Positions 43,889 through 62,337 of a stretch of DNA of 62,592 nucleotides are shown here, in pieces. Below the pieces are notes generated by a model, which did not search any database, was not told the DNA's origin, and saw only the letters and a program-made list of their open reading frames with translations. Origin of the DNA: Rhodospirillaceae bacterium Spongia-Bin9 (GTDB lineage Bacteria; Pseudomonadota; Alphaproteobacteria; Bin65); the NCBI GenBank assembly GCA_900197615.1, contig FZLR01000004.1:1-62592 (forward strand), read 5' to 3'. A program made the translations under genes and the position numbers. The number at the start of each line of letters is the position of its first letter. Within the stretch, counting starts at the first letter, position 1.

Positions 43889-46279
43889 TCAGGACGCCTG
43901 CCCGGCCCGCTTAGCAGAACTCCGGTCCAGCGCCGTCAGCAGTGCCGGCAGGAGCGACAGGTCGGCAATCAGCGCAAAGGCGATAATCATCGCGGTCAGG
44001 ACCCCGACCTGTGCGGTGGGAATGAATGGAGAAAACACGAGGATCAGGAATCCGGCCACCAGCACGACCGTTGTCGTGAACAGCGCCCGGCCGGCCGTGT
44101 CGAAGGTCTGGCGCACCGCTTCTTCGGGGTCCAGGCCGTATTCGCGTCGCGCACGGCGGTACTTGGCGAGGAAATGCACCGTATCGTCCACGACGATGCC
44201 GACGGTCATTGCCACCACGACGGACAGCGAGAGACCCACCTGTCCGACCGTCAACCCCCAGACGCCGAAGCCCAGCACGGCGGGAACCAGATTGGGAACG
44301 ATGCTGATCAGGCCCAACCGCAGCGACCGCAAGGCGAACAGGAGAATGGCGGAAATGGCCAGGAGCACGACTATTGTCCCTACCAGCATGGCGCGGATGT
44401 TGCGCTGTCCGATGTAGGCGAACAGAGCTGCGGGACCGGTGCTGTTGACGCTGGCTACATGGGACGCGTTTTCCTTTAGCCAGGCTTCGGCACGCGCGTT
44501 CAGGTCGAGCAGTTCTTGGGAGTCGAGCGTTTCCGCCGAAACCGTCATGCGCGTGGCCGATCTGGATCTGTCGATCTGGTTGTTCAGGTCCAGGCCCTGC
44601 GGAAGCGAGAGCTCGTAGAGCAGCAGGTATTGTGCCGCCAGTTCCCGGCTATCCGGAATCCGGTAGGCGGCAGGGTCGTCGCTGTGCATGCTCTTGTTGA
44701 GCTGACGGAAAGTGTCGGTGATGACCGCCACATGGCGTACGGGGGGCTGTTTCCGGTACCACTCGGCGAACTTCGAAACCTCGGTAAGGAAAGGAGGATC
44801 GGTAACACCGCCCTCGTCAGATGCATGCAGCGAGTATTCGAGCAGGGTATTACCGCTCAAGCGCTCGTCCATAAAGTCCGTATCCTGCCGAAACTCGACA
44901 CTCTTGTCGAAGAAATGAACGAGGACATCGTTTAGCTCGTTGCGCGGAACGGCCAGAAGCATCGCGGCCACAATCGCCAACCACCCCCAAATCAGCGCCT
45001 TCCTGTGGCGCAGCACGGAATCCGCAAGAATTTTCATTGTCGGACCGCGGAACCGGCGCTCCTTCGGGGCGCGAATGGGGAGAAGCGAGAGCAGAGCCGG
45101 CAAAAAAGTGACGGAAAGAATAAAGGATGCGGCGATACCGAAAGCGACGAAGATACCGAGATGACGGTAGGGCGGTACTTCGGAAAAGTTCATGCTCAAA
45201 AAGCCGAGCGCCGTCGTCAGGCTCGCCAGAAATACCGGATGCAGGTTGAGCCTGACGGATTCAACGATAGCGTCGTGTTTGGAATCTCCGGCACGCAGAC
45301 GTTGCTGCAAAGTCACCAGCAGGTGCACGCAGTTCGCTACGACAATCATCAGCACGATGGTCGGCGCCGGCGAAATGGGCGGCGAAAACGGTAAACCAAC
45401 CCAAAAACCCAGGCCCATCGACGCGAGAATGGAAAGGACGATGACCGCTCCGGTCGCCGCCACTCCTGCCCAGCTCCGGATGAGGACGCCGAGGATCAGG
45501 GCCATGAGCAGGAGGCTCGCCGGCAGGAAGATCATCTGGCTGCCGATCGAAGCCTCCAGAAAAGTTTGGTTGATCATGACCGTGCCGACGATGCGAAGAT
45601 CGATGCCGGGAAATCGCTTTTCTGCCTCTGCAGATACCGATCGGGCGAATTCGGCGACTTCGGCCACGGCCTCCAACAGGCCCTCTTCCGGCATTTCGAC
45701 GGTGACGTTTACAACGCTGACATCGCTGTTCCTGGCCAGAATACTGCCTGCGATACGCGGGTCGGACAAAGCAATGGCACGAATTCGCGAGCGCGCTCCG
45801 GCTTGGGCCAGGTCTTGAGGATCGACCAGGTTCCGCACATATAAATCGTCACCATCGGCGGTCGTGTGCTGAAAATTGGTGAGCGAGTCGACGCGTCTCG
45901 AATACGGTGTCTTCCAGGCTCTTTTTGTGAGCCATACGGCAGCCGAGAGCGCCTTTTGCGACGTTGCGTCACCGTCGTCCGGAACGATCAGGAACGCGAC
46001 GTTGTCGTTTTTCCCGTAGGTGTTTTCCAGCGCTTCGAGTGCCAGAAGCTGCGGATTGTCTTCGTCGAAGAAAATGCGGTAGTTGGCGGAAAATTCGAGC
46101 AAGGCAATGCCGCCTGACGCGATTGCAGCGAAGAACAGTGCAGTCAGGATGACCAGCCAGCGGGCCGCGATCACCCGTCGGGCAAATCGCTTTGCGAATT
46201 GCTCTCCTACTATGCTGAGTTTGTCCACAGGACTCGCGCCACCAATTACGAATGCCCTTGGCGGGCAAGCGGCGCGCAA
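43889..46279 (-). CDS. RND/MMPL-family exporter
   Basis: 796 residues from ATG 46279; GTG 46228 is another possible start. Two halves, each with a large periplasmic loop and a bundle of about five hydrophobic segments. Seen: a membrane anchor near 38-60, then SLLLMALILGVLIRSWAG, and in the second half SVVVAMTVGIVVDDTVHFLAKYRR, which has the Asp pair used for proton relay. It resembles the hydrophobe/lipid-exporting MMPL and HpnN-like group rather than AcrB. It stands alone on the minus strand, just left of the RiPP genes, so a role in exporting the cluster's product is possible but unproven. Confidence 0.9.
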   Translation of the reverse strand: MRAACPPRAFVIGGASPVDKLSIVGEQFAKRFARRVIAARWLVILTALFFAAIASGGIALLEFSANYRIFFDEDNPQLLALEALENTYGKNDNVAFLIVPDDGDATSQKALSAAVWLTKRAWKTPYSRRVDSLTNFQHTTADGDDLYVRNLVDPQDLAQAGARSRIRAIALSDPRIAGSILARNSDVSVVNVTVEMPEEGLLEAVAEVAEFARSVSAEAEKRFPGIDLRIVGTVMINQTFLEASIGSQMIFLPASLLLMALILGVLIRSWAGVAATGAVIVLSILASMGLGFWVGLPFSPPISPAPTIVLMIVVANCVHLLVTLQQRLRAGDSKHDAIVESVRLNLHPVFLASLTTALGFLSMNFSEVPPYRHLGIFVAFGIAASFILSVTFLPALLSLLPIRAPKERRFRGPTMKILADSVLRHRKALIWGWLAIVAAMLLAVPRNELNDVLVHFFDKSVEFRQDTDFMDERLSGNTLLEYSLHASDEGGVTDPPFLTEVSKFAEWYRKQPPVRHVAVITDTFRQLNKSMHSDDPAAYRIPDSRELAAQYLLLYELSLPQGLDLNNQIDRSRSATRMTVSAETLDSQELLDLNARAEAWLKENASHVASVNSTGPAALFAYIGQRNIRAMLVGTIVVLLAISAILLFALRSLRLGLISIVPNLVPAVLGFGVWGLTVGQVGLSLSVVVAMTVGIVVDDTVHFLAKYRRARREYGLDPEEAVRQTFDTAGRALFTTTVVLVAGFLILVFSPFIPTAQVGVLTAMIIAFALIADLSLLPALLTALDRSSAKRAGQAS

Positions 46280-46723: not shown

Positions 46724-47989
46724 ATGGGCAAGAATTCTCTGCGGAAAATTGCAGTTGTCGGGCGAGGTACCGCGGGGTCCCTGGCGGCCGCCAGCGTAAC
46801 GCGTCTTCACCCCGATAGCGACTACGAGTTACACCATATATACGACTCGCGTATCCCCATCATCGGTGTGGGCGAAGGCAGTTGGCCGAGCCTGGTCCAG
46901 GAATTGCGACAACTGACGGATTTGCCCCATGAAACCGTCCAGCAGCGCTTGAACGGAACCCGCAAGTACGGCGTTGCGTTCGAGGGATGGGGCCGGCGCA
47001 ATCGGGACTTTACCCACTATTTCACGCCGCAACAGGTGTCCTACGCCTACCATCTGTCTGCCGACGTGTTGACAGACCTGCTGCACGAAAGCACGCGCGC
47101 GCGCCACATCGACGCGAAAGTTCTCGATATCGCGAGGGTGGAGGATGGCGCGCAGGTGGAATTCGAGGGCCGGGCCCCGGAGCGCTATGACCTGGTCTTC
47201 GATGCCCGCGGGTTTCCCCGAGATCTCCAACCCGACCGGCACATCGATATTTCCTTCATCCCCACCAATACGGCCGTCATCCGCCGCTGTCCGGCGATCG
47301 TCGAAGAAGAGCGGGCCGGGCCGGTTCTGCAACATACCTATACCCGTGCGGTTGCGCGTCCGCACGGTTGGATTTTCGTCATTCCGCTAACCGTACACAC
47401 GTCCTACGGCTACATATTCAACCGCGATGTAACCGACGTCGAAGAGGTCGAATTGGACTTCGATTCGTTCCTCGAAACCGATGGCGTATCGGAATTCGAG
47501 CAACGCGCCGTCATTCCGTTTCCCAATTTCGTCCACCGTCGGATCTACAACGGCGCGGTGGCCCGCATCGGCAATGCAGCTGCCTTCATGGAGCCCCTCG
47601 AAGCCACGGCGATCGTATCCGCACAATTGCAGATAGGGATGGTTCTCCACATACGTTTCAATCGTTCGGCAGAGACCGTTGAGCGCGACGCGCCGACCGT
47701 CAATCGCTTCCTGATCGGCACCGTCCTCCGCTACGGCCTGTTCGTCGGCTGGCACTATTCCTGCGGCTCCAAATACGATAGCGAATTTTGGCGCTACGCT
47801 CGCGACCGCGCCTGGCCGCAACATCGCGAGGCAGCGGATCCGGAGGTGGTGGGCTGCGATGCGCTCCGCAAATTCGACGAAATGATGGGACTGTTGAACA
47901 GGCCGGTCATCGACAAGGCGGACTGGGATCGAATGTGTGGAGTCCCTCTCACCAGCTATGCCCAGATGTCCCAGGGTCTCGGCTATTAG
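46724..47989 (+). CDS. Flavin-dependent tryptophan-halogenase-like protein
   Basis: 421 residues, shorter than the ~510-540 of tryptophan halogenases. Seen: dinucleotide-binding GRGTAG at 13-18, GVGEGSWPSL at 48-57, Lys81 in RKYGVAFEGWG, which aligns with the hypohalite-transfer Lys (KxxxxF spacing), GWIFVIPL at 215-222 in the place of the WxWxIP motif (second Trp is Phe) and FMEPLEATAI at 288-297 with Glu293 in the position of the second active-site residue. It could halogenate or otherwise oxidise an indole. In this cluster the obvious indole is the C-terminal Trp of the precursor. No signal peptide; cytoplasmic. Confidence 0.85.
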   Translation: MGKNSLRKIAVVGRGTAGSLAAASVTRLHPDSDYELHHIYDSRIPIIGVGEGSWPSLVQELRQLTDLPHETVQQRLNGTRKYGVAFEGWGRRNRDFTHYFTPQQVSYAYHLSADVLTDLLHESTRARHIDAKVLDIARVEDGAQVEFEGRAPERYDLVFDARGFPRDLQPDRHIDISFIPTNTAVIRRCPAIVEEERAGPVLQHTYTRAVARPHGWIFVIPLTVHTSYGYIFNRDVTDVEEVELDFDSFLETDGVSEFEQRAVIPFPNFVHRRIYNGAVARIGNAAAFMEPLEATAIVSAQLQIGMVLHIRFNRSAETVERDAPTVNRFLIGTVLRYGLFVGWHYSCGSKYDSEFWRYARDRAWPQHREAADPEVVGCDALRKFDEMMGLLNRPVIDKADWDRMCGVPLTSYAQMSQGLGY

Positions 47990-48118: not shown

Positions 48119-50512
48119 TCACGCAATAACCGGCTCGGGATTGAGTTCTTCTTCGGCGAGCGGCTTTTTGCGCCAGCCCATGGCGACCGGCACATCGTAC
48201 AGGCGTCCCGGCGCGAAACGCTCCCAGAAATGGCGCATGCCGGGCACGACGACCCGCGCCACCGGCATGCCGATATCCGGCCGCGTCTGGTCGAGCACCA
48301 GGAATTCCATGCCCCTCGCTTCGGCCAGCGCGCGGCACCGCTCGACCTCGTCGCGCGCATCCGCCGCATCGGGAACCGGATAGTCGGCCTTGCCGCGCAG
48401 CGCCGCGCCGTCCGCCGGCGCCAGATACGGATGGTCCGCCAGCGTCGCCGTCCTCCACCACCGCAACGCCAGCGGATCGTCGATCGCCGGGCCCGGGCCT
48501 CCGCCGGGCCGCGGCAGCCAGGTCAGGCACTGGTTCAGTTCGCACACGGCGCGCAGGGCGGCGATGCGCGGATCGGTATGCGCCCCGGCGCCGTAGATGA
48601 TGTCCTCGGTGTCGCCGCCGGTCCGGCGCGAGACGGCAACGAAGGCGGGAATGCCGAGATCGGCGGTGACGTCGAGCACCCACATGTCGCGCTCATGCCG
48701 GCGGTAGTAGTCCGGCGCCGCGGCGAGATAGTCGTCGCCGAAACTCTCCAGGTCGACGCCCGGCACGCGCAGCCGGTTGTACCACCAGATGGCGAAGGCG
48801 TCGCGTTCGACCAGCTCGTAGAAGCCCTGGAGGATCGCCTCTTCCAGCGTGTTGCCGGCGGCGCAACCGTTCGAATCGGCGATAAAGTCGGCGCTGCCCC
48901 GTTGCTCGGCCGGGGTGCTGTAGAGCATCGATGTCGGCAGATGGCGGTGGCGATTCTGCGTTAGAGACCAGACCGGCGACCAGTCGATTTCGGCCTCGGG
49001 GTCGAGGCGCGGCGGTACGATGTTATACGGGTGGCCCCTGGCGTTGATGTTATTCGCATCGTCCAGCTGGCGCTCGCTGAACAACTGGACGTCGTTCGGA
49101 GGGATCGCAGCCGCATCGCCGTCGACGGCCAAATCGGCATACCGGTGCGTGCAGCAAATCTCGTCGCCGTGATAGGCGCCGGAGTAGCGCTCGATCGCCT
49201 CGCACAGCGCGCTCGCTTCGGATTGCGCTCGCGTGCTGCCCTTGCCGGCGCTCTTGCTGCGCAGGCTGCGCCTGAGCGAACTCAGCTTCCGGCTTCGCAG
49301 TCCGTAATTGGTCCCCGCCCAGTAAACGTGAAGCCAGGAATCGGCCTCTTCTGTGGTGCGCGCCACCCAGGTCACGACGCCGCTGACCGGGCTGACCAGA
49401 TGGCGGTATTTCGCAAGGGTTTCTTCGGGAGATACCGAACGCACACCGCCGCTGTTGCCGACGCGCGTCGGGCTCGGCCGCAGACGCACCGGAACCGGCG
49501 GCCGGTCGGCGCGGTACAGGGCCTCGTCGCCGCACGCGAAACATTGCGGCCGGCGCATGACCTGATGCCGTTCGCCGGCGAGACGGCCGACATTGAGCGA
49601 GATGGCCCGGTCGTGAATCGGCGCCGTCTCCTCCAGCACCAGCCACTTGGCGATTTCGGCCGCAATCAGCCCATAGACCGCGTCCAGCACGGCGGGCTCG
49701 GCGGCGCTAGGCCGGAAGGCGGCCTCGTCGCCGGCAAGGTTGCGCAGGAAGGTGTGGACTTCCCGATGGCTGCGTATCCGGTAGGCGAGGCAGGCCCAGC
49801 ACGGCCCCCGTTCCGCCGGCCGGAACACCGGACCGAACAGCGGCTGCAGGCCCTTTGGCCGGACGAGCATCCAGGGTGCGCCGGTTTCGATGTGGCGCCG
49901 GTTGATCTCTTCGTAGCGCTCTTCGAGATAATCGGCGCAGACGGCGACCGAGAGGGTCGGGCGGTTCGCGGCCGTCGCGACACCCATCGCCTCAAGCCGC
50001 CGGGAAAGCTGTCCGCCGTCGCCGTCGACCGCCACGCGCGCAGCCGCCAGGCGTTGTTCCGCCCAGCGCGGCGAGGCGCCGAGGGAGGACCAGTAGGCCG
50101 CCCGGCCCCGGTCCATCGAATGGTCGCCGGAAACGGCATAGCCGCGGGACGCCAGGCCGGCGAGAGCCGCGCGGACATCGGCAGCGGCATGGGTGCCGGA
50201 AAGTGCGGCAACGATATCGCCCTGCGGCCGGCCGTCGAGCAGCGGCAGGAGATTGCCATAGATCGGTCCGCGCAGCAGCGTGTTGAATGTCTCGGAAACC
50301 AGCAGGGTCTGTCCCTCCTCGACCTCATGGAAGTCGAGATGCGGGGTGAGCGTCGGCCGCTCGACAAGTCCCCGGTCCGACGCCGAGACCTCGGTCAGGA
50401 TTCCCTGCGGCGACGGCCTGCCCGGCGATGCGGGCGCGCCCGTCTTCCTGTCCGGGGCCGGGTCGGCGGACCGGCGCAAAGGATTGCCGTCGGGTCGATA
50501 CCTGTCAGTCAT
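48119..50512 (-). CDS. Fused leader-binding/YcaO azoline cyclodehydratase
   Basis: 797 residues. Residues ~60-130 form the winged-helix leader-binding (RRE) part of the bacteriocin cyclodehydratase partner; residues 238-241 (CWAC) and 324-327 (CFAC) give the four Zn cysteines of the E1-like part; residues ~365-797 are the YcaO domain with SEASALCEAIER (431-442) and ELVERD (566-571) ATP-site motifs. Together these convert Cys/Ser/Thr to azolines with ATP. The C-terminus ends NPEPVIA, a reduced form of the PxPxP end. It follows the AlkB-fusion gene by 86 bases on the same strand. No dehydrogenase is adjacent. Confidence 0.93.
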   Translation of the reverse strand: MTDRYRPDGNPLRRSADPAPDRKTGAPASPGRPSPQGILTEVSASDRGLVERPTLTPHLDFHEVEEGQTLLVSETFNTLLRGPIYGNLLPLLDGRPQGDIVAALSGTHAAADVRAALAGLASRGYAVSGDHSMDRGRAAYWSSLGASPRWAEQRLAAARVAVDGDGGQLSRRLEAMGVATAANRPTLSVAVCADYLEERYEEINRRHIETGAPWMLVRPKGLQPLFGPVFRPAERGPCWACLAYRIRSHREVHTFLRNLAGDEAAFRPSAAEPAVLDAVYGLIAAEIAKWLVLEETAPIHDRAISLNVGRLAGERHQVMRRPQCFACGDEALYRADRPPVPVRLRPSPTRVGNSGGVRSVSPEETLAKYRHLVSPVSGVVTWVARTTEEADSWLHVYWAGTNYGLRSRKLSSLRRSLRSKSAGKGSTRAQSEASALCEAIERYSGAYHGDEICCTHRYADLAVDGDAAAIPPNDVQLFSERQLDDANNINARGHPYNIVPPRLDPEAEIDWSPVWSLTQNRHRHLPTSMLYSTPAEQRGSADFIADSNGCAAGNTLEEAILQGFYELVERDAFAIWWYNRLRVPGVDLESFGDDYLAAAPDYYRRHERDMWVLDVTADLGIPAFVAVSRRTGGDTEDIIYGAGAHTDPRIAALRAVCELNQCLTWLPRPGGGPGPAIDDPLALRWWRTATLADHPYLAPADGAALRGKADYPVPDAADARDEVERCRALAEARGMEFLVLDQTRPDIGMPVARVVVPGMRHFWERFAPGRLYDVPVAMGWRKKPLAEEELNPEPVIA

Positions 50513-50598: not shown

Positions 50599-53058
50599 TC
50601 AGGACGGGTTGGCCGGGGCGGATTCGGCGGCGTCTGCCGACCCGTCCAGCGCGATGATCGCGGCGGCGGCGCAAGCTGCCGTTTCGCCGACCGCGGCGTT
50701 CAGCGCATCGAAATCGTCCCGGCCGCAGGATCGCGCCAGCGCTTCCCCGGCCCTCGAGCCCAGAGTCTCGACCGAAGCGTCTTCGTCTGCGACGAGCCGC
50801 AGGACGCCGTGCAAGTTCCGCCACAGCGTCGCGGCTTGCGCCAGTTCCGCTGCCAAGCCGTCTTCGATTCGCCCTTGTGCCGCAGCAGCGTGGAAAACCG
50901 AGGCTGCCGCAGGCGCTGGCGCTCCCATGTCGTCCACGGCATGGACAACTTGCAGGAGCCGTGCAGCGCGTTCGATATCGCGGAAACCGCCGCGCATGTC
51001 CTCATAGGCCGAAAGGCCGGTTCCGGCGCCGCCGTCGCCGGCCTCGCGCAGTTCGGCGATCAGCGCGTCGCGCGCGGCGCTCGCGGCAAGGGCTTCGCGT
51101 CGCGCTTCGTCGAATCGCCGCCCGATTCCGGCTGCCCCGTGTTCGAAGATGCAGCGCGCGCGGGTGAGTTCCAGAAGTTCGCCTGCTGGCGCGGCAGCCC
51201 GGCAGTGCTCCGCGAAACCGGTCAGGGACCGCACAGCGCGTCCTTTTCGGCCGCCGGGGATCGGCGCGAAAATCAGGCTGTCGTGCGACAGCTCCCTGAG
51301 TGCATCGTGGAAGCGCCAACACAGTCCGTCGTAGCTGTCGTCGGAGTTGCCTTCGTAAACGAAGAGAATATCGAGCGCTGCGCCTGGCGCCGCTTCGCCG
51401 CTGGCCAGATCGCCCAGTACCGCGGCGGCGACTCCGCCTTCGCTGCCCGGCACGAGCCGGTCGGCGAATTCTTCCGCGACCGACGACAGGACGACGGCAA
51501 TCGAGGCTTCGGCCAGATTGGCAAGCGCCGTCCCCGCCTCGATCGGCGTCAGGTTGCCCCGCAGGATGTGCATGCCGATCTGGAACGCCTTGTCGTTCGA
51601 CCAGTTGCGCACCGTCTCCACCGTGTCCCGAACGTCCTGGACCGGCATTTCGGCGATCCGCTCCTTCATTTCCGCAACGCCGAATTCGTGCGTCCAGTAG
51701 AGGCGCGTCAGGCCCCGGCGGGCGATCGCCTCGGCCTCCGGGTCCGGCCCGAAGCCCTTCGGAAGGTCGAGATCGGTGAATTCCCTTTCCTGCAGGTTGT
51801 CGAGCAGCTCCGGATGCCGTTCGATCCATCCGGCGAGGCGCGGCGCGGCGGCGAATATCTCGACGATGGCGTCGAACGCTTCCGGGCGCGCGGCCGAGAC
51901 CGGGCTGTCATAGGCGCTCCAGTCTTCGATCTCGGGATAGAATTGCGCGCGCCATCGGTCGACCAGCGGGTCCATGGTCGCGAACCAGCGTTTCGGACGC
52001 ACCGCCAGATTGAACATCTTGGCGTAGCTGCCCGGCAGTTGCGGCGACTCGTCGGCGCCGCGATTCTGCAGCAGGGGATAGGGGCGGCTCGCCCAGGCGT
52101 GGTGATCCGGATGCCGCTGCATGTTGTAGAACATCCAATTGCTGAACTTGTAGTTGGCGTTCCACGAATGCCTGGGCAGGACCTTTTCGAACCGGCCGCT
52201 GCGCAAGCGGATCCGGCGTAACCCGTAATGCTGCATGTAGTTGCTGATCTTCATCGAGAAGACGGCGCCGAAACACAGGAACGCGTAGGCCAGAGCCGCC
52301 CAGATACCGCCCATCCAGAAAATCAGCCCGTACCAGAAGCCGGTTTCGATGCTGTAACGCCAGAACGGGTTGCTGTAGTGCCAGACCGGCAACCTCTTGC
52401 GCGCCAGCCGCTCCCGGATGACCCGCCACGAGCCGGTCAGGTTGCTCGCGACTTCCCGGGGAAAGTAGTTCCAGAAGCTCTGCCCTTTGGGCGCGGAGCC
52501 GACATCCAGCGGCGTGCCCACCTGGGCGTGGTGGATGTAAACATGCTCGGTGGCGTATTGCGGGTAGGACGCGGAAGCGAGTAGGAACTCGCCGAGCCGC
52601 CGCTCCCAGGTTGCACGCCGGTGAATCAGCTCATGGCCGACAATGAAGACCGCCTGGGCCTCGACCCCCAGCACCACCGCCAGCAAGAGGCATTCCCAGA
52701 CCGTGAACTGGCCGGAGACGAGGATCTGCCAGAGACCGAACGCCAGCGCTGCCGGCCAGAGAAGCGCCCAGAGCCAGACCGGAAGATTGTGCCAGATCAA
52801 CCTTCCTTCAGGCGTCCTGGCGGGATCCATGTTCCGCGCGTCGTCGCCGAATGCGATATCCAGCGGCCCCGCGAGCATGAAGAAGACGAACGGCGCAACG
52901 ATCCACCAGCCGCCATGGAACAAGGCAAGGAAAATCAGCGGAAAGATTGCCAGCGGCAGAAAATGCGGCAGCGCTTTGAAGAAAGACGGCTCGATGGCCG
53001 TTACAGCCGCCGCCGTTCCCCGATCCGGACCGTCTATCGCGACACTGTCATTCGCCAT
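50599..53058 (-). CDS. AlkB-type membrane hydroxylase fused to a degenerate GlnE-like domain
   Basis: 819 residues from ATG 53058, with AGGAACAGGG upstream. Residues ~25-390: integral membrane di-iron hydroxylase with about six hydrophobic segments and His motifs HELIH (142-146), EHVYIHH (171-177), NYMQHYGL (273-280) and HPDHH (316-320), the alkane-1-monooxygenase set. Residues ~400-806: similar by layout to GlnE adenylyltransferase (ALANLAEAS, LDILFVYEG, LTRARCIF, DMRGGFRDIERAARLLQ). The Asp residues of the nucleotidyl site appear lost (DLDL is ALDI, Asp563 alone kept; the VDLRLRP Asp is Ile). First gene of the minus-strand unit with YcaO. Confidence 0.85.
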   Translation of the reverse strand: MANDSVAIDGPDRGTAAAVTAIEPSFFKALPHFLPLAIFPLIFLALFHGGWWIVAPFVFFMLAGPLDIAFGDDARNMDPARTPEGRLIWHNLPVWLWALLWPAALAFGLWQILVSGQFTVWECLLLAVVLGVEAQAVFIVGHELIHRRATWERRLGEFLLASASYPQYATEHVYIHHAQVGTPLDVGSAPKGQSFWNYFPREVASNLTGSWRVIRERLARKRLPVWHYSNPFWRYSIETGFWYGLIFWMGGIWAALAYAFLCFGAVFSMKISNYMQHYGLRRIRLRSGRFEKVLPRHSWNANYKFSNWMFYNMQRHPDHHAWASRPYPLLQNRGADESPQLPGSYAKMFNLAVRPKRWFATMDPLVDRWRAQFYPEIEDWSAYDSPVSAARPEAFDAIVEIFAAAPRLAGWIERHPELLDNLQEREFTDLDLPKGFGPDPEAEAIARRGLTRLYWTHEFGVAEMKERIAEMPVQDVRDTVETVRNWSNDKAFQIGMHILRGNLTPIEAGTALANLAEASIAVVLSSVAEEFADRLVPGSEGGVAAAVLGDLASGEAAPGAALDILFVYEGNSDDSYDGLCWRFHDALRELSHDSLIFAPIPGGRKGRAVRSLTGFAEHCRAAAPAGELLELTRARCIFEHGAAGIGRRFDEARREALAASAARDALIAELREAGDGGAGTGLSAYEDMRGGFRDIERAARLLQVVHAVDDMGAPAPAAASVFHAAAAQGRIEDGLAAELAQAATLWRNLHGVLRLVADEDASVETLGSRAGEALARSCGRDDFDALNAAVGETAACAAAAIIALDGSADAAESAPANPS
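50641..51861 (-). other. GlnE-like domain within the AlkB fusion
   Basis: Codons 400-806 of the fusion. In GlnE, RGGIRDIEF and TRAR-type segments frame an adenylyl-transfer site. Here both framing segments persist (RGGFRDIER, LTRARCI) while catalytic Asp residues do not, so a binding or scaffold role is more likely than catalysis. Confidence 0.7.
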
Positions 53059-53545
53059 AGCCCTGTTCCTGAGTCTGCCGGCCACATTCGTATTTCGGTT
53101 CGATCACGCTCTGCGGTCAATACCGGCGAACCGATTTCCAGCGATTTATCGCGGTCGCGAACGTCCGGTTCCAGGCCGTCCGCTCGATTGTTCCGCAAAG
53201 CGGCTTCCGCCGGCTGCGCGCCGATTGCTTCGAAGCCTGGCCTGCACGCCTGGGAGTGCCGGTCGACCGTCGCCGCACCGGACGCACCGCAAACTTGCCG
53301 GAACGGTTGTACGTCGAGGCACGCCGCCGGGCGGAAAACCCGAACTGAAGCTCGATCGGAACTACGAAGCCCAAAATGGCGTCTCTCGCAAGCCCCCGGC
53401 CGATGTATGTCGGATCGGTATTTCCGACACCCCGATGACTTGACCTTGCCCGGCCAGGATTGTATATAATTTCCTAATTCTTCACCCAGCCCAATAGAAA
53501 CATTGTACTATTTGCTTTTTCTGTTGGAGGAGGCCCTGCGCGACG
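53059..53545. other. Divergent promoter gap, 3' third AT-rich
   Basis: 487 bases between the AlkB fusion (minus) and the export operon (plus). The left two thirds are GC-rich and hold no gene I can defend; the right third (from 53430) turns sharply AT-rich and carries a good promoter. Confidence 0.6.
53440..53468 (+). promoter_or_regulatory. Sigma-70-like promoter of the export operon
   Basis: TTGACC (53440-53445), 17-base spacer, TATATA (53463-53468). GGAGGAGG at 53526-53533 serves the GTG at 53546. The sequence TTGACCTTGC is shared with the region upstream of the precursor gene. Confidence 0.55.
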
Positions 53546-54094
53546 GTGTTCAATAATCCATTTGACTCATTTCACAAGACAGTTGCCGAAGCGAAAGAAG
53601 AACGCGAACAACTCGACCGGCTGCTGACGATTTCCACACCGCGCGAGCGTCTGCTTGTCGGTGTCACAGCCCTGTTGTTGTTCATCCTTGCGGTATGGCT
53701 CTTCTTTGGCAGCGTATCCCGTACCCTTGCGGTAGACGGAGTAATTGTCGAAGCCGGCAAAGATTTGCACGCGGGCAGCAGGTCTGTGCAAGCGCTTGTC
53801 TGGGTCGGGAACGACGTCGCTCCGCAGATCGTAGACGGCATGTCGGCTACAATAGAACTTAGCTTGGCGGATGGAGAGGTGAAAATTCTTGACGGAAAGG
53901 TCGAGAAGGTCTCCGCAGTAAAATTGTCCGATGAAATGGGTGCATTTGAATTTGCGACACCTTTGTCCGTGCGCCGCGTCGTTGTCGCGCTCGGCAACAA
54001 CCTTGATGTCGCTTCAATCGCGGGCAGGAAATGCCGGATTATCGTCGAACTCGGCAGTCAATCTCCGATCACGCTTTTTCGAATAGGGCGATAG
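53546..54094 (+). CDS. Short HlyD-like NHLP secretion protein
   Basis: 182 residues from GTG 53546. N-terminal ~35 residues are charged and helical, followed by one membrane segment (36-55) and a small beta-rich periplasmic part. It sits where the HlyD-like membrane-fusion protein of NHLP export sets stands, just before the C39 ABC gene, but is less than half the usual ~400 residues and lacks the long coiled-coil and most of the lipoyl part. Four bases separate it from the ABC gene. Base composition is lower in GC than neighbours to the left. Confidence 0.7.
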   Translation: MFNNPFDSFHKTVAEAKEEREQLDRLLTISTPRERLLVGVTALLLFILAVWLFFGSVSRTLAVDGVIVEAGKDLHAGSRSVQALVWVGNDVAPQIVDGMSATIELSLADGEVKILDGKVEKVSAVKLSDEMGAFEFATPLSVRRVVVALGNNLDVASIAGRKCRIIVELGSQSPITLFRIGR

Positions 54095-54098
54095 TAAG

Positions 54099-56309
54099 AT
54101 GCCGCCGCGTGCCTCCAAGGTATCTGGAGATAAGGCTGCATCGGACTTCTCGAAGCAAAAGTTAACCACGCCGATTTTCTTGCAGATGCACGCGTCAGAA
54201 TGCGGCGCAGCCTGCCTCGGCAGCATACTGGCCTATTTCGGGCGCTGGGTGGCGCTCACCGAATTAAGGGAAAGATGCGAGGTGAGCCGGGACGGCAGCA
54301 GTGCCGCCAGCATCCTGCGCGCGTCCAGACACTACGGTCTCGAATGCAATGGGCTCAGCGTACGTGCCGATCAATTGAAAAAGCTGCCGCTACCCCTGAT
54401 TATTTTCTGGCAATTCAGCCATTTCGTTGTCCTCGAGGGATTCGATGGCAGCAAATTTTTCCTCAATGACCCGGCTACGGGGCGGCGCACGATTTCTGCT
54501 GACGAATTCAACAAGAGCTACAGTGGAGTTGCACTGCGATTCATGCGCGGCCCCGATTTCAGACCCGGTGGCGAGCAGCCTGGCTTGTTCAGTCAACTGG
54601 GCGCCCTGCTCGATGGATCGTGGAGTATGCTTGCCGGAGTCATTTCCTGCGGCCTTATGTTAACGATTCTAGCATTTGTCATTCCAGCATCTCTCAGTAT
54701 TTTTGTGGACGGCGTTCTGGAAAACCATGGGCCATGGGGCGGATTGGTGGCAGCCCTAATCGGTGCCGGTGCCGTCGTTTACATCCTCTCCCTGCTCAAG
54801 CACCGCTTCCTGAAGCGGCTCGCAGTGCGGATTTCCGTGACAGGCTATAGTCGGAGCTTGTCGCGTATGCTGCGATTGCCGATAGAGTTTTTCGAGCATC
54901 GGTTGGTTGGCGATTTAACCGATCGGATTTCTTCCATTGACAGAGTCGCGAAGAATCTGACTGGCCAGTTTATTGTGCTCATTATAGACATGGCAATGAG
55001 CGGAATCTTGCTCATAGCAATGCTGATTTACGATGTTATTCTTGCGTCAATTGTCCTTTTTCTGGCTGTGCTTCACGGAATTCTGGCCCGATTTCTTAAC
55101 GGGCTTCGGGCCGTTCGAAGCCAGGCTATGCGCCGCGAACAGGGATTGCTGATCGGCTTCGGCATGCAGATGTTGAGTCATGCGGACAATTTGCGCATGA
55201 CGGGGTCGGACGATCGTTTCTTTTCGCGCTGGAGCGGTCAGCAGGCACGCGAACTGCACGCGCGCCAGCACTATTCCGAACTGGTCTCCGTCAATACCGC
55301 GCTTCCGGGCCTGGTCGGCGCACTTCGCAGCGCGGCGATCCTGGGCATCGGGGGCGGTCTGGTCATTTCCGGAGAAATGACCCTAGGGACGCTGGCCGGA
55401 TTCTATATCCTGGCGGAGATGTTTCTTGCGCCGATCGGGCGCTTTCTGGAATTTACCGACCAACGCCAAGCGCTCGAAACCGATCTTCAACGACTCGACG
55501 ACATCTCCAAAACCGCTGAAGACCCCGTTTTCGACCACCGAAGTCCGGAAGCGGAGTCGATTCCCACCTTCAAAGGTCGGCTCCAGCTTGCAGGCCATCT
55601 CGATCTGCGAAATGTCACCTTCGGGTTCAACAAGAGCCGGCCGCCCTTGATCAAGGACTTCAACCTCGCGATCAAGCCGGGGCAGCGCGTCGCCTTGGTC
55701 GGTCCCAGCGGTTCCGGAAAGTCGACCCTGGCGCGTCTGGTTTCGGGTCTCTACCAGCCCTGGTCGGGCGAGATCCTGTTCGATGGCCATCTGCGGGATG
55801 AAATTCCCGAGGAAGTGCTGCGGCGGTCCGTTTCCATGGTGGCTCAGGAAAACGTGCTCTTTTTCGCGTCCCTTCGCGACAACATCACCTTGTGGAACCC
55901 GGCGGTCCCGGATGAAGCCATCTTCGCTGCGACGCGAGATGCCTGTATCCACGACGAAATTCTGCTCAGGCCGCAGGGATATTCGACTCTCGTCGAGGAA
56001 GGCGGGGCGAATTTCAGCGGCGGCCAGCGGCAACGACTGGAAATCGCCCGCGGGCTGGTGGGCAACCCGACAATTCTCATTCTCGACGAAGCGACCAGCG
56101 CCCTCGATGCCGCGACGGAGGAAATTGTCGACGATGCCTTGCGGCGTCGCGGCGTCACCTGCCTGATTGTGGCGCACCGGCTGAGCACCGTGCGGGATTG
56201 CGACGAAATTGTCGTGCTCGACAAAGGCGTCGAAGTGCAGCGCGGCACGCACGACGAGTTAATCGCCGACCGGGACGGCACTTATTACAAGCTGGTCAGG
56301 TCGGGCTGA
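54099..56309 (+). CDS. NHLP-type export ABC transporter with C39 leader peptidase
   Basis: 736 residues. N-terminal C39 peptidase with Gln29, catalytic Cys35 (HASECGAACL), His107 (SHFVVLEG) and Asp123 (LNDPATG), all intact; then a six-span membrane domain (~170-450) and an ATPase with Walker A GPSGSGKSTL, signature SGGQRQRLEIA, Walker B ILILDEATSALD and H-loop VAHRLST. It should cut precursors after a Gly-Gly-type site while exporting. The stop and the next ATG overlap by one base (TGATG). Matches the NHLP bacteriocin-export permease/ATPase/peptidase class. Confidence 0.95.
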   Translation: MPPRASKVSGDKAASDFSKQKLTTPIFLQMHASECGAACLGSILAYFGRWVALTELRERCEVSRDGSSAASILRASRHYGLECNGLSVRADQLKKLPLPLIIFWQFSHFVVLEGFDGSKFFLNDPATGRRTISADEFNKSYSGVALRFMRGPDFRPGGEQPGLFSQLGALLDGSWSMLAGVISCGLMLTILAFVIPASLSIFVDGVLENHGPWGGLVAALIGAGAVVYILSLLKHRFLKRLAVRISVTGYSRSLSRMLRLPIEFFEHRLVGDLTDRISSIDRVAKNLTGQFIVLIIDMAMSGILLIAMLIYDVILASIVLFLAVLHGILARFLNGLRAVRSQAMRREQGLLIGFGMQMLSHADNLRMTGSDDRFFSRWSGQQARELHARQHYSELVSVNTALPGLVGALRSAAILGIGGGLVISGEMTLGTLAGFYILAEMFLAPIGRFLEFTDQRQALETDLQRLDDISKTAEDPVFDHRSPEAESIPTFKGRLQLAGHLDLRNVTFGFNKSRPPLIKDFNLAIKPGQRVALVGPSGSGKSTLARLVSGLYQPWSGEILFDGHLRDEIPEEVLRRSVSMVAQENVLFFASLRDNITLWNPAVPDEAIFAATRDACIHDEILLRPQGYSTLVEEGGANFSGGQRQRLEIARGLVGNPTILILDEATSALDAATEEIVDDALRRRGVTCLIVAHRLSTVRDCDEIVVLDKGVEVQRGTHDELIADRDGTYYKLVRSG

Positions 56310-59251
56310 TGCAGGACGCAAAGCCAACATACGCATCGATTTCCGAACTGGCCGCCCGCTCCGGCACGTCCGTGCCCTGCGCCGGCAACCTGCCGGTAGA
56401 ACTCGACGATCCGGATAGTGTCTGGTTCATCGACCGGGGCGCCGTAAATCTTTTCCTGGTGGAATTCCAGGACGGGGTGGAGCAGGCGGCGCCGCAACAT
56501 CTGCTGCGGCGCGAAGCGGGCTGGTTGCTGCCGGGCGTCGCACGGGACGCACGAGGCGATGACGAAGACACAACGCTCAGCCTGGTTGCCAAGGGATCGC
56601 CGGATACCCTTCTGAAACGCCTCCCGGCCTCCTTACTGTCGGAGGTTCATCCAACGGAATTGGCGGAACAGACCGATACCTGGCTGACCGCCATTACGGA
56701 CACGCTTTCTCGCTTTGCAAGCCGTCTTCCGCGTCCGACGGCGCTTGCCGAACCCGGCATGACGCAGACTCTGTCGCCGTGTACGCTATCCGTGCGGCGC
56801 GGCGTGGTATGGGTATCCGAACCGCCGCGCGGCACAAGCCTGTACATGGATATTGTCGACCTGGCGGATCTCGCCGGGGCAAGCGGCCCTGACGAAGCCT
56901 CGATGCCGCTGACCCGGACAAGCTGGCTCACCTTGTTCGACGAAGCGACGCTTTCGGGAAAATCGACCGAAACGTTGGCGCAGCAAGGCATGCTGCTGCC
57001 GGCGCTGGCCTCATTTCACGCGGTTGCATTCGCCCTGGAACGCCTTAACCGCCGTCTGGCCGTGGTCGACGATGCGAATCTCGAACGCGCGCGGACGGCC
57101 AGTCGCCGAACGGCCGAGAGAGTTGCGCGGCAGCGGCTCTTCAACATCTATGACCTGCCGATTGACCGGGCTGCCAATGTCGAGGACACGATGCTGGCGG
57201 ATGCCCTGCAAGCCATCGGACGCCATGAAGGAATCGCTTTCAAAATTCCGGCGCGCCCCGGAACTTCCGATTCGCCTGTCGGCCTCGTCGACATTCTCGA
57301 TGCGTCGGGCGTACGCGCCCGGCGCGTGCGATTCAAAGCCGAGGGCGACTGGTGGCGCGGCGACAGCAACGCAATGCTGGGATTCCGCGCCGCGGACGGC
57401 CAGCCCGTAGCGCTGCTGCCGGGAGCGTTCGGGCGCTATCGGGAATTCGACCCGGTCAGCAAGCGCAGCGTCCGGATTACGGCGGATCGCGCCGGCACTC
57501 TGGGAGAGGAAGCCTGGATATTCTACCGGCCATTGCCGTCGGAGAACGTAAGACCGTCAGACCTGCTGGGAATTGCCCTGCACGGTTCGGCCGCAGATCT
57601 GGCGCGGCTGGTGATTGCCGGGCTGCCGGGCGGCCTGATCAAACTGGTGCCGGCACTCGCGCTTGGCGTCGTCGCAAATCAGGTAACGGCGGGCGGAAGT
57701 GCCGGAGCGCTCTATGCCGTGGCCGCGACGGTGGCGGCGTTCGGCCTGCTCGGCGCGCTGCTGCACCTGCTTCAAAGCACGGCGATGATGCGGCTCGAGG
57801 GTCGCTCGGCGTCGCGGGTCGAAGCGGCTTACTGGGACCGCCTCATGCGCCTTCCGCCAAGCATTCTACACCGCCAACCGGCCGGCGATCTGGCCATGTC
57901 GGGAATGACATTCCAGAATATTCGCGACGGCCTGCAGGGGGTCGTTGCCGATAGCCTGCTGTCGGTCATCTTCCTGCTTCCGGTATTTGGCGTCATCTTT
58001 TTTTACAATGGCATCCTCGGGGTCATCGCTCTCGTCTTCAGCCTGGCTTCGCTGTCGATCACCGTTCTCCTCGGGCTGCGCCAGATTTCGCCTTACGGGC
58101 GAATGATGGGCGCAGCACGTCGCGTAGCCGGCCGGCTGTTCCAGATCGTCGGCGGCATCGCCAAGCTGCGTGTGGAAGGCGCGGAAGGGTCGGCTTTCGC
58201 CATCTGGGCGCGGGATTATCGCAAGCAGAAGCGCGCGGAAATCGAACTGGGCGCGCTGGAGGGGCATTCTCAGGCATTCGGTGCCGCGCTCCCGTTCCTT
58301 GCCGGTGGAGTGCTGCTTTTTGCGGTGGTCGCTGTCGGCGACCGGAATGTCCCGGTCGGCGATTTTCTCGTCGTCTACACCGTCTTCATCGCTTTTCAGT
58401 CCGCCATCGCCCGGCTGGGAGAATCCTTCGGCGCGCTCGCCGCTATGTTGCCAGCATTCGATCAGATGCGCCCGCTGTTCGCCCCAGTTTCGGAAGCCGC
58501 GGTCGAAGGCGAGCCGGTCGAATATCTGGGCGGCGATATTCTGTTCGACCGCATTTCCTTCCGCTACGACTCCGACGGGCCGCTGATCCTCGACGATGTC
58601 ACGATTCGCGCCCGTCCCGGCGAGTTCGTTGCGATCGCCGGCGAGTCCGGCGCCGGCAAGAGCACCCTGTTCCGGCTCGCCCTCGGGATCGACCGGCCGA
58701 CCGCGGGCGCGGTGTACTACGACGGACGCGATCTGAGGCACCTGAACCTGAAGCAGGTGCGTCGGAGAATCGGCGCCGTGCCGCAATCGGTCGGGCTCCA
58801 TCCCCAGGATCTCTGGGACAACCTGGTCGGCCACCACGAGGATGTGGCGAGTGAAGACGTATGGACGGCGGTCCGGATCGCCGAAGTCGAAAAAGAAATC
58901 AAAGGCATGCCCATGGGCATGATGACCATGGTCGGCACCAGCGGGGCCGTCCTGTCAGGCGGAGAGAGTCAGCGCGTCACAATCGCCCGCTCGGTGATCG
59001 GCAGCCCGCGAATTATGATGTTCGATGAAGCAACCAATTGGCTGGACAACGACAACCAAGCCAAGGTAATGCGGAACCTCACAGCCTTGACCTCCACCCG
59101 GCTCGTCATCGCCCACCGCCTCTCCACTCTGGAACAGGCAGACCGCATCTATGTGTTGCAGGCCGGAAGAGTCGTGCAAAGCGGCTCTTTCAGCGAACTC
59201 ATGGAGGTCGACGGGGAGTTCCGAGAACTGGTCAAGAGGCAGATCGCCTGA
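56309..59251 (+). CDS. NHLP-type export ABC transporter, second subunit
   Basis: 980 residues from ATG 56309, which overlaps the preceding stop; an earlier frame start at 56198 is inside the first ABC gene. A ~400-residue N-terminal region with a cyclic-nucleotide-binding-like beta fold and no C39 site, then a membrane domain (~425-680), then an ATPase: Walker A GESGAGKSTLFRL (~776), signature SGGESQRVTIA (~881) and Walker B IMMFDEATNWLD (~900, Asn-Trp in place of Ser-Ala). This is the partner normally found with the C39 ABC in NHLP clusters. Confidence 0.93.
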   Translation: MQDAKPTYASISELAARSGTSVPCAGNLPVELDDPDSVWFIDRGAVNLFLVEFQDGVEQAAPQHLLRREAGWLLPGVARDARGDDEDTTLSLVAKGSPDTLLKRLPASLLSEVHPTELAEQTDTWLTAITDTLSRFASRLPRPTALAEPGMTQTLSPCTLSVRRGVVWVSEPPRGTSLYMDIVDLADLAGASGPDEASMPLTRTSWLTLFDEATLSGKSTETLAQQGMLLPALASFHAVAFALERLNRRLAVVDDANLERARTASRRTAERVARQRLFNIYDLPIDRAANVEDTMLADALQAIGRHEGIAFKIPARPGTSDSPVGLVDILDASGVRARRVRFKAEGDWWRGDSNAMLGFRAADGQPVALLPGAFGRYREFDPVSKRSVRITADRAGTLGEEAWIFYRPLPSENVRPSDLLGIALHGSAADLARLVIAGLPGGLIKLVPALALGVVANQVTAGGSAGALYAVAATVAAFGLLGALLHLLQSTAMMRLEGRSASRVEAAYWDRLMRLPPSILHRQPAGDLAMSGMTFQNIRDGLQGVVADSLLSVIFLLPVFGVIFFYNGILGVIALVFSLASLSITVLLGLRQISPYGRMMGAARRVAGRLFQIVGGIAKLRVEGAEGSAFAIWARDYRKQKRAEIELGALEGHSQAFGAALPFLAGGVLLFAVVAVGDRNVPVGDFLVVYTVFIAFQSAIARLGESFGALAAMLPAFDQMRPLFAPVSEAAVEGEPVEYLGGDILFDRISFRYDSDGPLILDDVTIRARPGEFVAIAGESGAGKSTLFRLALGIDRPTAGAVYYDGRDLRHLNLKQVRRRIGAVPQSVGLHPQDLWDNLVGHHEDVASEDVWTAVRIAEVEKEIKGMPMGMMTMVGTSGAVLSGGESQRVTIARSVIGSPRIMMFDEATNWLDNDNQAKVMRNLTALTSTRLVIAHRLSTLEQADRIYVLQAGRVVQSGSFSELMEVDGEFRELVKRQIA

Positions 59252-59363: not shown

Positions 59364-60668
59364 ATGAAGAAGCCCGTTGATCCAGCAGAATTGCTCGTCT
59401 CGAGGGCTGGCGACGATAGCGATTTTCGCGAACGCCTTCTCGCCAATCCCAGGGAAACGATCGAACAGGAATTCGGCGTGACGCTGGCCGGAGACCATGA
59501 AATTCTTGTGCACGAAGAATCCTATAACGCAACGCACCTGGTGCTTCCGCCGCGTAGCAAGCTCAGCGAGGCGGAGCGGGAGGAGGCAAAGACCGGCGCA
59601 GCGTCGATCGAGTTTCTTCGCAAAACAATGTACGACCCTGCGCCGCCCCTGCGTCCCCCCGCCGTCGAACGGGCGAGGGCCCGGAAGAGCGCCGCGGCGT
59701 CCGGGGAACTTGCTGTGGCCGGCAGGAATAGCATCCGCCGCGGTCTCGAATTCCTGGAATCGACCGTCGACGAAAACGGGGCCTGGCACTGCATCCGGTT
59801 CAACACAGCCGACCCGGACATTCCCCGGCATTTCGAAAGGCCCCCCTTTATTTCGGCGCTCTGCGTCCTGGCCCTCGAATGTTGCGAAGAAGCGCAGGCG
59901 AAGGCCATGTGCGCCGCGACGGGAGCTTACCTCGTCGACACCATCGAATTTCCCGGCTTGTGGCGCTACTACCGCCATCTTCCTCTGGATCTCGATAGCA
60001 GTACGCTCTGTTCGCTTATCGCCGGGAATCACCCCTGGATATTGCTGGAAAGGAACGTGCCGCGAATACTGGCTAATCGAGACGAGGCGGGCCGTTTCAT
60101 GACTTGGATCCTGGCGGAAGACGAACCCGATGTCGTATCGAGGTTCCGTATCGAAGCCGACCCGGTGGTCAACGCGAATGTCATCGCGTATCTCGGCGAT
60201 CGCCCGGAAACCGCGGATGCCCAAAGATGGCTGGAAGCGCTGGTTGCCGAGGGCGGAGTTGACGGCTCGTCCAAATGGTATCCCGACACGGTCGCGATTT
60301 ACTATGCGATCGCCCGCGCCATGGTTCGTGCGCCGACCGCCCTCGAACGGCTGCGCCCGATACTTGCGGATCGAATTCTGGGATTGCGCGACGGGAAGGG
60401 AGACTTCGGCAACGTCCTTCAGACCGCTCTGGCCGTATCGGCGCTCTACAACATCGGAAGCCTCGAAAGCATCGATGCGAAAGGCGAGACAGAGAGAATC
60501 ATGAGTTCGCAGCGTGAGGACGGCGGCTGGCCTGAGCTCCTCGCATTCGGCGACCAGGAATTGAAGTGGGGCACGATCGGGCAGATCGGGCATGGTTCCG
60601 AAGCCGTGACCTCCGCTTTCTGTATCGAGGCTCTGGAACGTCTTGTCGAAATCCTGAGGGTCCGATGA
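59364..60668 (+). CDS. NHLP leader fused to terpene-cyclase-like alpha-toroid protein
   Basis: 434 residues from ATG 59364. Residues 1-80 match the NHLP leader: FRERLLANPRETIEQEFGVTL and ILVHEESYNATHLVLPP parallel the same parts of the precursor at 62065. Residues ~118-434 are an alpha/alpha toroid of squalene-cyclase/prenyltransferase type with DLDSS at 209-213 in the place of the class II DxDD(T) acid motif and QREDGGW at 383-389 as a QW motif. Either a leader-guided enzyme or a substrate. It follows the second ABC gene after 112 bases; no strong RBS is seen. Confidence 0.82.
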   Translation: MKKPVDPAELLVSRAGDDSDFRERLLANPRETIEQEFGVTLAGDHEILVHEESYNATHLVLPPRSKLSEAEREEAKTGAASIEFLRKTMYDPAPPLRPPAVERARARKSAAASGELAVAGRNSIRRGLEFLESTVDENGAWHCIRFNTADPDIPRHFERPPFISALCVLALECCEEAQAKAMCAATGAYLVDTIEFPGLWRYYRHLPLDLDSSTLCSLIAGNHPWILLERNVPRILANRDEAGRFMTWILAEDEPDVVSRFRIEADPVVNANVIAYLGDRPETADAQRWLEALVAEGGVDGSSKWYPDTVAIYYAIARAMVRAPTALERLRPILADRILGLRDGKGDFGNVLQTALAVSALYNIGSLESIDAKGETERIMSSQREDGGWPELLAFGDQELKWGTIGQIGHGSEAVTSAFCIEALERLVEILRVR

Positions 60669-60837: not shown

Positions 60838-61956
60838 ATGGAAATCGATGAAGCAGTCACCCTGACCCAGGACCGTCTCGCCGAAGAGGGCGGCACGATG
60901 GGCGATTTGCTCGGGCACTTTCGAAACAGGATTTCGCCTGTTCTTATCGGAGATTCGGAGTGGGGGCGCATACTCGAATGCGCCGGGAAACTTCCAATCA
61001 CGATGGGCGCTCTTCCATTCGGCTTCGAACTGCCGCTGCATGAACGCAGGCCGGAGGCGGATCTCGGCGCGTCCCTGGCGAGCGGAACCAGATCGGCCGC
61101 GTTTTTCCGGGAGCGCGCCCGGACCGACAAGACGGACAAGGCCGCGCGCGCGATCGTGCGCCTGTTCAGGGAAATGGACGCCGAAAGCTCGGCTCTGCGC
61201 GAAATCGTCGGTCGCAAGTTGATGCTGGAATACGACATCGGCGCTGCGCAGGACGGCGAAAATTCGCTGCCGGGAATGTTCCTGCGGCCGGGCGAACGCC
61301 CGATTGTCGGCGCCCACGGTCAGGAGAACGATGTCGGTCTGGTGGTTGACGCGCTCGTATCCTGCGTCGGCTGGGAGTTGACCGATGCCGAGCGAAAGAA
61401 CGTCGAACGGGTTTACCTGGCGCAGCCGGGCGATACGCGCATGGATTCGTTCGGTGTATTCCCGTCTCGCTCCCGGGCGATCCGCTTGGCGATCATGGGC
61501 TTCAAATCGCAGCAGGAACTAAGTTCTTATCTCGAAGAAACGGGTTGGCCGGGTCAGGTCTCGGATGTCGAAGCCGTGATTGCACGCTTCAAGGAACGTG
61601 TGAATATTGTCAGGACAGGGGCAAATATTGACGTGCGGGAAGAGGGTATCGGTCCGACGCTCGGCCTCACGCTCATTGTCAAGCAAAGATATACAAAAGA
61701 TTCACGTTATTGGCTGGATGGCCTGACCGATTGGGATCCGTTTCTGGAAGCCATGAGCCGCGAGGATATCGTCGTTCCGGAGAAACTGGCCGCGCTTGCT
61801 GACTGGGTTTGCAAGCCGACAACGCTATTCGCAAAATCCGGGCGTTATGTGTTGCTCCGCGGCATTCATCACATAAAGCTGGTCATATCCGAAAATCGAC
61901 TCCGACAGGCCAAAGCCTATGTGTTTATGGTGCTTTCGGGAGCGGTAGCGCCTTAA
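60838..61956 (+). CDS. Unrecognised 372-residue protein of the RiPP cluster
   Basis: 372 residues, soluble, no membrane segment or signal peptide. Mixed alpha/beta. Features: LPFGFELPLHER near 59-70, a charged helical stretch at 85-135, FPSRSRAIRLAIMGF (208-222), YLEETGWPGQ (231-240), NIDVREEGIGPTLGLTLIV (263-281) and a Trp/Lys-rich end. The late pattern (GWPG, then D-x-x-GPxLGLxL) suggests a defined fold, perhaps one of the hypothetical proteins that accompany toroid proteins, but I cannot name it. It follows the toroid gene after 169 bases and is the last plus-strand gene of the unit. Confidence 0.75.
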   Translation: MEIDEAVTLTQDRLAEEGGTMGDLLGHFRNRISPVLIGDSEWGRILECAGKLPITMGALPFGFELPLHERRPEADLGASLASGTRSAAFFRERARTDKTDKAARAIVRLFREMDAESSALREIVGRKLMLEYDIGAAQDGENSLPGMFLRPGERPIVGAHGQENDVGLVVDALVSCVGWELTDAERKNVERVYLAQPGDTRMDSFGVFPSRSRAIRLAIMGFKSQQELSSYLEETGWPGQVSDVEAVIARFKERVNIVRTGANIDVREEGIGPTLGLTLIVKQRYTKDSRYWLDGLTDWDPFLEAMSREDIVVPEKLAALADWVCKPTTLFAKSGRYVLLRGIHHIKLVISENRLRQAKAYVFMVLSGAVAP

Positions 61957-62064: not shown

Positions 62065-62337
62065 TTACCAGCAGCAGCAAAGGCCGGCTGAAATAGCTTC
62101 GAGCTGCTCTTCAGTGATGTTGGGATCCGGCGGCAATGCAAGATGCACCGTTTGCATGTCGCTCTCATGGACCCTGATATTCATCGAATCGGGAATCGTG
62201 ATGCCCAATTCCTCACTGATGGTGCTCTTTGGATCTGTCAGGAGCTGTTGCCTGAAGTCCGCGTCCAGGGCGGACCTCTCAACAATCTGCTGCAGCATTT
62301 CGTCGCCGGTTCTCACTATCGTGTCCCTCTGTTCCAT
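62065..62337 (-). CDS. NHLP-type RiPP precursor with five-residue core (LCCCW)
   Basis: 90 residues. Residues ~12-71 match the nitrile-hydratase-alpha-like leader: DADFRQQLLTDPKSTISEEL, GITIPDSMNIRVHES and TVHLALPPDP. The leader ends ISAG (82-85), a Gly-Gly-type C39 site, and only Leu86-Cys87-Cys88-Cys89-Trp90 follow before TAA. Checked on the DNA: three TGC codons then TGG then TAA. Three adjacent Cys fit the YcaO enzyme here; the terminal Trp fits the halogenase-like enzyme. ATG 62337; GAACAGAGG lies within the first codons, so the RBS is weak. On the opposite strand to the export operon. Confidence 0.92.
   Translation of the reverse strand: MEQRDTIVRTGDEMLQQIVERSALDADFRQQLLTDPKSTISEELGITIPDSMNIRVHESDMQTVHLALPPDPNITEEQLEAISAGLCCCW
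62068..62082 (-). other. Predicted core peptide Leu-Cys-Cys-Cys-Trp
   Basis: Codons 86-90 of the precursor, directly after the predicted Ala-Gly cleavage site. The core length assumes cleavage at that site. Confidence 0.7.

Follow-up and report, generated by a model that had tools for sequence, protein, structure and literature searches.

The srp biosynthetic gene clusters of marine sponge microbiomes encode the peptide SrpE, whose core in these sponge bacteria is LCCCW. In the accessible parts of two reports (PMC10286304, PMC10858898; all papers are cited here to the extent of such parts), cyclodehydration of the three Cys residues to thiazolines by the YcaO enzyme SrpC and leader-dependent bromination of the terminal Trp at indole-6 by SrpI were demonstrated biochemically. 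In the mpp cluster of Moorena producens, the peptide MppE is encoded together with the brominase MppI, the prenyltransferase MppC, and the terpene synthase MppD; MppC, an ABBA prenyltransferase, geranylates Trp at indole-5 in a leader-dependent manner (PMC11791876, PMC12715784). Here we describe a locus of Rhodospirillaceae bacterium Spongia-Bin9 (contig FZLR01000004.1; the whole stretch of 62,592 nucleotides that was analyzed is called the window), which encodes an LCCCW precursor along with a YcaO protein, a halogenase-like protein, and two proteins with predicted prenyltransferase and terpene cyclase folds (Table 1). We consider it very probable that this is an srp-type cluster acting by thiazoline formation, Trp bromination, prenylation and cyclization, and C39-type cleavage and export. 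What looks new is the predicted meroterpenoid step beside a known core.

The precursor was read on the minus strand, from the open reading frame at 62065-62337 (MEQRDTIVRTGDEMLQQ...NITEEQLEAISAGLCCCW), whose translation of 90 amino acids terminates in SAGLCCCW; the C-terminal stretch is NITEEQLEAISAG-LCCCW. A preliminary description of this DNA had proposed an NHLP precursor with a core of five residues behind Ser-Ala-Gly. Both parts were borne out: LCCCW directly follows this Gly-type cleavage site, and the protein matched the profile TIGR03793 (leader_NHLP) with an E value of 7.2e-20 and 70.6 bits, above the cut-off of 50.9, confirming at the sequence level a genuine NHLP (proteusin) precursor. 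A chance reading frame is excluded, since 736 homologues, the window's own protein included, were found at E<=1e-5. The best match in the Protein Data Bank (PDB) was the proteusin chimera MprE7-TH1 (8tb1; E 4.9e-11). In the corresponding mpr cluster (MprE, MprC/MprD; PMC10286304, PMC12455567), azoline-forming enzymes likewise recognize an NHLP leader, but the native cores differ and the mpr cyclodehydratase rejected the SrpE leader.

The start codon had been placed at the ATG at 62337, which lies seven codons too far upstream. Val8 of this frame is aligned with Met in 116 of the 120 best of the 736 homologues, and a Shine-Dalgarno-like word (loosely defined and counted without a shuffled control) stands 5 to 18 bases upstream of the start in all 82 compared copies (77 ATG, 5 GTG), i.e., those of 80 loci, the window, and a second contig of the same genome. 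Both observations led us to reject the ATG, and the coding sequence most likely spans 62065-62316, with a GTG start at 62316 and 83 amino acids. In this numbering, NITEEQL occupies residues 66-72, precisely as NLTEEQL does in SrpE (PMC10858898), which further supports the shorter frame. The recognition motif thus reads I(X)4L instead of the L(X)4L of SrpE; Ile is also present in 113 of the best 120 LCCCW homologues.

The core itself is not new. The preliminary description knew of no ribosomally synthesized and posttranslationally modified peptide (RiPP) with this core, a view that had to be abandoned, as LCCCW is identical to the published core of SrpE, with its thiazoline and bromo-Trp biochemistry; a full-text literature search for the core listed the two reports cited above and one further paper, on plant traits. 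In PMC10286304, LahT150 served to free this core. By its sequence, the window's precursor is SrpE-type, and the novelty of the striking LCCCW core is thereby settled in the negative. LCCCW terminates all of the best 120 of 736 homologues, and all 80 loci taken from named genome records contain an open reading frame with this ending; the scan that found them had SAGLCCCW among its six search words and hence favored that tail. The records span Alpha-, Gamma-, and Deltaproteobacteria, Acidobacteriota, Gemmatimonadota, Nitrospinota, Binatia, and others. Since the 82 copies were chosen by their CCCW tail, which is constant by construction, the evidence lies in their codons alone: Leu is encoded by four different codons and Cys by both of its codons, and three stops occur, in 15 distinct 18-mers, so constancy acts on the protein. 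Searching with the LCCCGI peptide of a congener yielded 578 matches, the best 120 of which comprised 7 already known and 113 further proteins. Nineteen of these end in LCCCW and 94 otherwise (counts that include IIRARLLK and ANRDPPAR, both resembling out-of-frame ends); 89 of the 94 retain CCC within the last eight residues, with 61 reading LCCCGI and the rest WCCCGN/T/S, LCCCL, and others. The preliminary description had been staked on C-termini that neither vary freely nor lack Cys. This held for the close homologues listed; the related group keeps CCC and changes the end (LCCCGI, WCCCGN, LCCCL).

As in the srp cluster, the NHLP leader and LCCCW core are accompanied by a YcaO cyclodehydratase and a halogenase-like protein. 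The earlier proposal that both would have work on the core was right. Their likeness to SrpC and SrpI was judged by family. Among the best 120 homologues of the halogenase-like protein, GxGTxG was found in 119, the catalytic Lys region in 120, and EPLE in 119. At E<=1e-3, no further YcaO and no further halogenase were detected in the genome (∼96% complete). Unlike the published srp clusters, the source genome carries a second SrpE-type precursor elsewhere (contig C171:42502-42759, plus strand), which is 74% identical and has the core LCCCW; none of the cluster's modification genes was found in the 20 kb searched around it. Because YcaO and halogenase were each found in a single copy, this orphan precursor could share the window's enzymes.

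Also unlike the srp clusters, as far as described in the accessible parts of PMC10286304 and PMC10858898, the window adds genes for a prenyltransferase-fold and a cyclase-fold protein. The former, of 372 amino acids, is predicted from its modeled structure to have an ABBA prenyltransferase fold; K347, H345, K316, and D133 are invariant in all 42 aligned family members, of which 30 belong to LCCCW loci and 12 are divergent. The latter is a predicted type II terpene cyclase fused to an NHLP leader-like domain. Its predicted fold resembles that of drimenol synthase (PDB 9mhs; AsDMS 9m7d) and the meroterpenoid cyclase MstE (PDB 6sbc), and its Asp motif occupies the same position as in drimenol synthase, but it differs from both by the N-terminal leader-like domain, by DLDS, and by its RiPP neighborhood. 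The DLDS motif does not vary (24 of 24), and its second Asp lies at the position that is Asn in 9m7d, the structure of AsDMS D333N. For this terpene part, the mpp cluster is the nearest published precedent in the sources available to us: it combines a leader-dependent peptide and a brominase like SrpI with an ABBA prenyltransferase and a gene for a terpene synthase. It differs in having a Nif11-type leader and lanthionine rings instead of an NHLP leader and YcaO, and a leader-like domain is not mentioned for its terpene enzyme in the accessible parts of its reports. As a separate observation, the region L146:3421-9476 encodes two NHLP precursors, ending in GGGECIC and GGVCQC, and contains the prenyltransferase-fold gene in duplicate.

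Among the 80 LCCCW loci (flanks of up to 10 kb, often ended by contig ends), the 372-aa gene was present, wholly or in part, in 69; the same holds for the YcaO gene in 65, the halogenase gene in 46, and a desaturase-GlnE-like fusion gene in 46. The cyclase count of 80/80 was set aside as inflated by cross-matches to the precursor leader, as were the counts for the two transporters, inflated by matches between them; for the cyclase, whole-genome searches in two overlapping sets (41 relatives and 385 genomes of the class) were used. Halogenase and cyclase were both present in all nine genomes with a Trp core (G000 to G004, G084, G296, G370, and G372), and neither was found in any of the three with related precursors lacking Trp only, i.e., G005 (LCCCGI), G293 (LCCCF), and G295 (RCCC) (Fisher p 0.0045, relatedness ignored). 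All three retain a 372-aa homologue (51, 44, and 41% identity, respectively). Where a genome had entered this comparison by its LCCCW copy, any second NHLP precursor, such as the one in G370:C54 ending in SAGCM, was left out, as was G269, whose NHLP proteins are of another type (37 to 43% identity). G006 gave no match for the precursor, halogenase, YcaO, cyclase, or 372-aa gene. In 50 LCCCW metagenome-assembled genomes reached via the named loci, at least 6 of which are identical to or conspecific with genomes above by identical coordinates, halogenase was found in 47, cyclase in 46, and the 372-aa gene, wholly or in part, in 50 (in one case only as 32 residues where a contig ends). The sequences themselves establish the precursor, its core, and the gene set, along with conservation and gene co-occurrence.

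Related loci showed further arrangements. Four stretches (L147, L149, L150, and L151) combine cyclase homologues (35 to 38% identity) and a 372-aa homologue within 9 kb of NHLP precursors ending in APTDDSY (twice), APGGDSW, and DYAWDC, all of which contain Tyr or Trp in the core, the last also with a distant halogenase homologue (24%); no match to YcaO was found in the four stretches, which may represent a wider family of NHLP-terpene clusters. The precursors without Trp lie at L096:1504-1758, L119, and L128 (cores LCCCGI, LCCCF, and RCCC). At L143:11682-12032 and L144:11955-12281, a second precursor with the core WCCCGQ or WCCCGN is found near an LCCCW cluster, with a 372-aa homologue of its own (∼50%). 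In G269, of the same class, a run of ten NHLP proteins (C1:1018381-1023847; L129, L132 to L140) has tails that all end in W; no halogenase was found in this genome.

Table 1. Features of the precursor locus in the window
Feature	Position	Strand	Basis or remark
SrpE-type NHLP precursor, 83 aa, likely GTG start	62065..62316	-	Leader profile, homologue starts
Core LCCCW (CTT TGC TGC TGC TGG)	62068..62082	-	Translation
NITEEQL, counterpart of L(X)4L recognition site, Ile first	62101..62121	-	Site mapped in SrpE (PMC10858898, accessible part)
372-aa protein, predicted ABBA prenyltransferase fold	60838..61956	+	Predicted structure, Foldseek
Predicted type II terpene cyclase domain with N-terminal NHLP leader-like domain, 434 aa from likely ATG (frame opens 59151)	59364..60668	+	
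DLDS motif (D208-L-D210-S211, model numbered from 59367), counterpart of DxDD/DxDTT	59988..59999	+	
Second NHLP-type ABC transporter subunit (true start likely downstream of the frame's first codon)	56198..59251	+	Closest TIGR03797 (below cut-off)
C39 peptidase-ABC transporter	54099..56309	+	Closest TIGR03796 (just below cut-off); ECGAACL, SHFVV, NDPA present
Short HlyD-like secretion protein	53546..54094	+	Weakly matches TIGR03794, with a score well under its cut-off
Membrane fatty-acid-desaturase domain fused to GlnE-like nucleotidyltransferase domain	50599..53085	-	
Fused YcaO cyclodehydratase, SrpC-like	48119..50512	-	Profile matches: leader-binding TIGR03882 + TIGR03604/PF02624
Flavin-dependent halogenase-like protein, SrpI-like	46724..47989	+	PF04820 E 2.8e-44
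MMPL/RND-type transporter, adjoins precursor in several relatives	43889..46279	-	

By analogy to SrpC and SrpI in the homologous system, the YcaO protein would form three thiazolines on the Cys residues of LCCCW, and bromination of the terminal Trp would likely fall to the halogenase-like protein. The predicted ABBA prenyltransferase may attach a prenyl group, the chain of which the leader-domain-fused predicted cyclase would cyclize; we infer these two steps from the predicted folds, the conserved Asp motif, and gene co-occurrence. The C39 transporter, judged by its family, likely cuts after Ser-Ala-Gly and exports the product, predicted to be a brominated, prenylated, cyclized azoline peptide, i.e., a peptide-terpene hybrid.

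Several observations weigh against this scheme. WxWxIP is a hallmark of flavin-dependent tryptophan halogenases; its canonical form occurs in none of the best 120 homologues of the window's protein, 118 of which carry GW[IV]FVIP (GWIFVIP in 85 and GWVFVIP in 33), without the second Trp of the motif. We therefore call the protein halogenase-like, meaning that it would likely work like SrpI while being no canonical family member. Orthology to SrpE, SrpC, and SrpI is argued from the identical core, the leader family, and gene content, and the cluster genes face different directions, so that a single operon is not evident. Foldseek template modeling scores for the 372-aa protein are modest (query-normalized, 0.38 to 0.56 among the 50 matches listed); Pfam returned weak unrelated matches at most for its family, and the family profile had no match among solved structures at E<=10. 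The cyclase model is weaker (predicted local distance difference test score of 80), and Glu replaces the first motif Asp in a more distant homologue; given the motifs EVDST, DLDST, and DADTT in clusters of the L147 and L149-L151 type, the first Asp is not universal. For cores with Trp elsewhere (WCCCGQ, WCCCGN, and SAWNSLNQNS), no cyclase of their own was found in the stretches searched, despite a 372-aa homologue. The founding srp report is reportedly a 2021 paper in the Journal of the American Chemical Society. In the accessible srp literature within our scope, which lay outside that founding paper, no report of prenylation or of a terpene cyclase was found.

The cluster may instead yield a peptide carrying thiazolines and bromo-Trp only, the prenyltransferase-like and cyclase-like proteins being inactive scaffolds or leader-binding chaperones and the NHLP domain a decoy or docking module, an alternative that we regard as possible though short of likely. 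The accessible parts of PMC10286304 and PMC10858898 demonstrate thiazolines and bromination and no further modification, and the lack of a match between the 372-aa profile and a solved prenyltransferase agrees with this alternative, as does the Ser that replaces the last Asp of DxDD in the window's cyclase. Harder to reconcile with inactive proteins are the invariance of DLDS and the placement of its second Asp on the residue mutated in AsDMS D333N, the four invariant residues of the 372-aa family, and the fact that the cyclase tracks a C-terminal Trp, as expected of an enzyme acting there.

It seems unlikely that the 372-aa protein prenylates another site in place of Trp (a Cys thiol, a thiazoline, or the N- or C-terminus) and that the cyclase acts on that group. 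The acceptor need not be Trp, since 372-aa homologues of 35 to 51% identity occur beside cores that keep Cys but lack Trp and Tyr (LCCCGI, LCCCF, RCCC, SAGCM, VCQC, and ECIC), a further point against prenylation of Trp. Yet the three genomes in which every related precursor ends in GI, F, or CCC lack the cyclase, and it is present with Trp/Tyr cores even where the stretch searched showed no YcaO. Moreover, the 372-aa protein is 80 to 85% identical among Trp-core congeners and 51% identical in the LCCCGI congener, whose YcaO is retained at 87%. We consider it very improbable that this frame is silent or degenerate and not the real substrate. Its start and the contig end are separated by 276 bases, six of the eight cluster genes run against it, and GTG takes the place of ATG, but frame and core are intact, a ribosome-binding word and a recognition site with one conservative change are present, and the full enzyme set lies on the same contig.

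We advance, as a possibility still short of likely, that srp clusters, which occur in metagenome-assembled genomes of many phyla, make ribosomal meroterpenoids. In this proposal, an ABBA enzyme guided by the leader would prenylate the C-terminal (bromo)Trp of tri-thiazoline LCCCW, and a type II terpene cyclase bearing an NHLP leader-like domain of its own would cyclize the prenyl chain. The natural pairing of a C-terminal Trp with halogenase and cyclase provides a handle on which enzyme acts where. If the proposal is true, searches for a brominated tri-thiazoline LCCCW peptide would miss a product carrying a cyclized terpene, which could keep it hidden.
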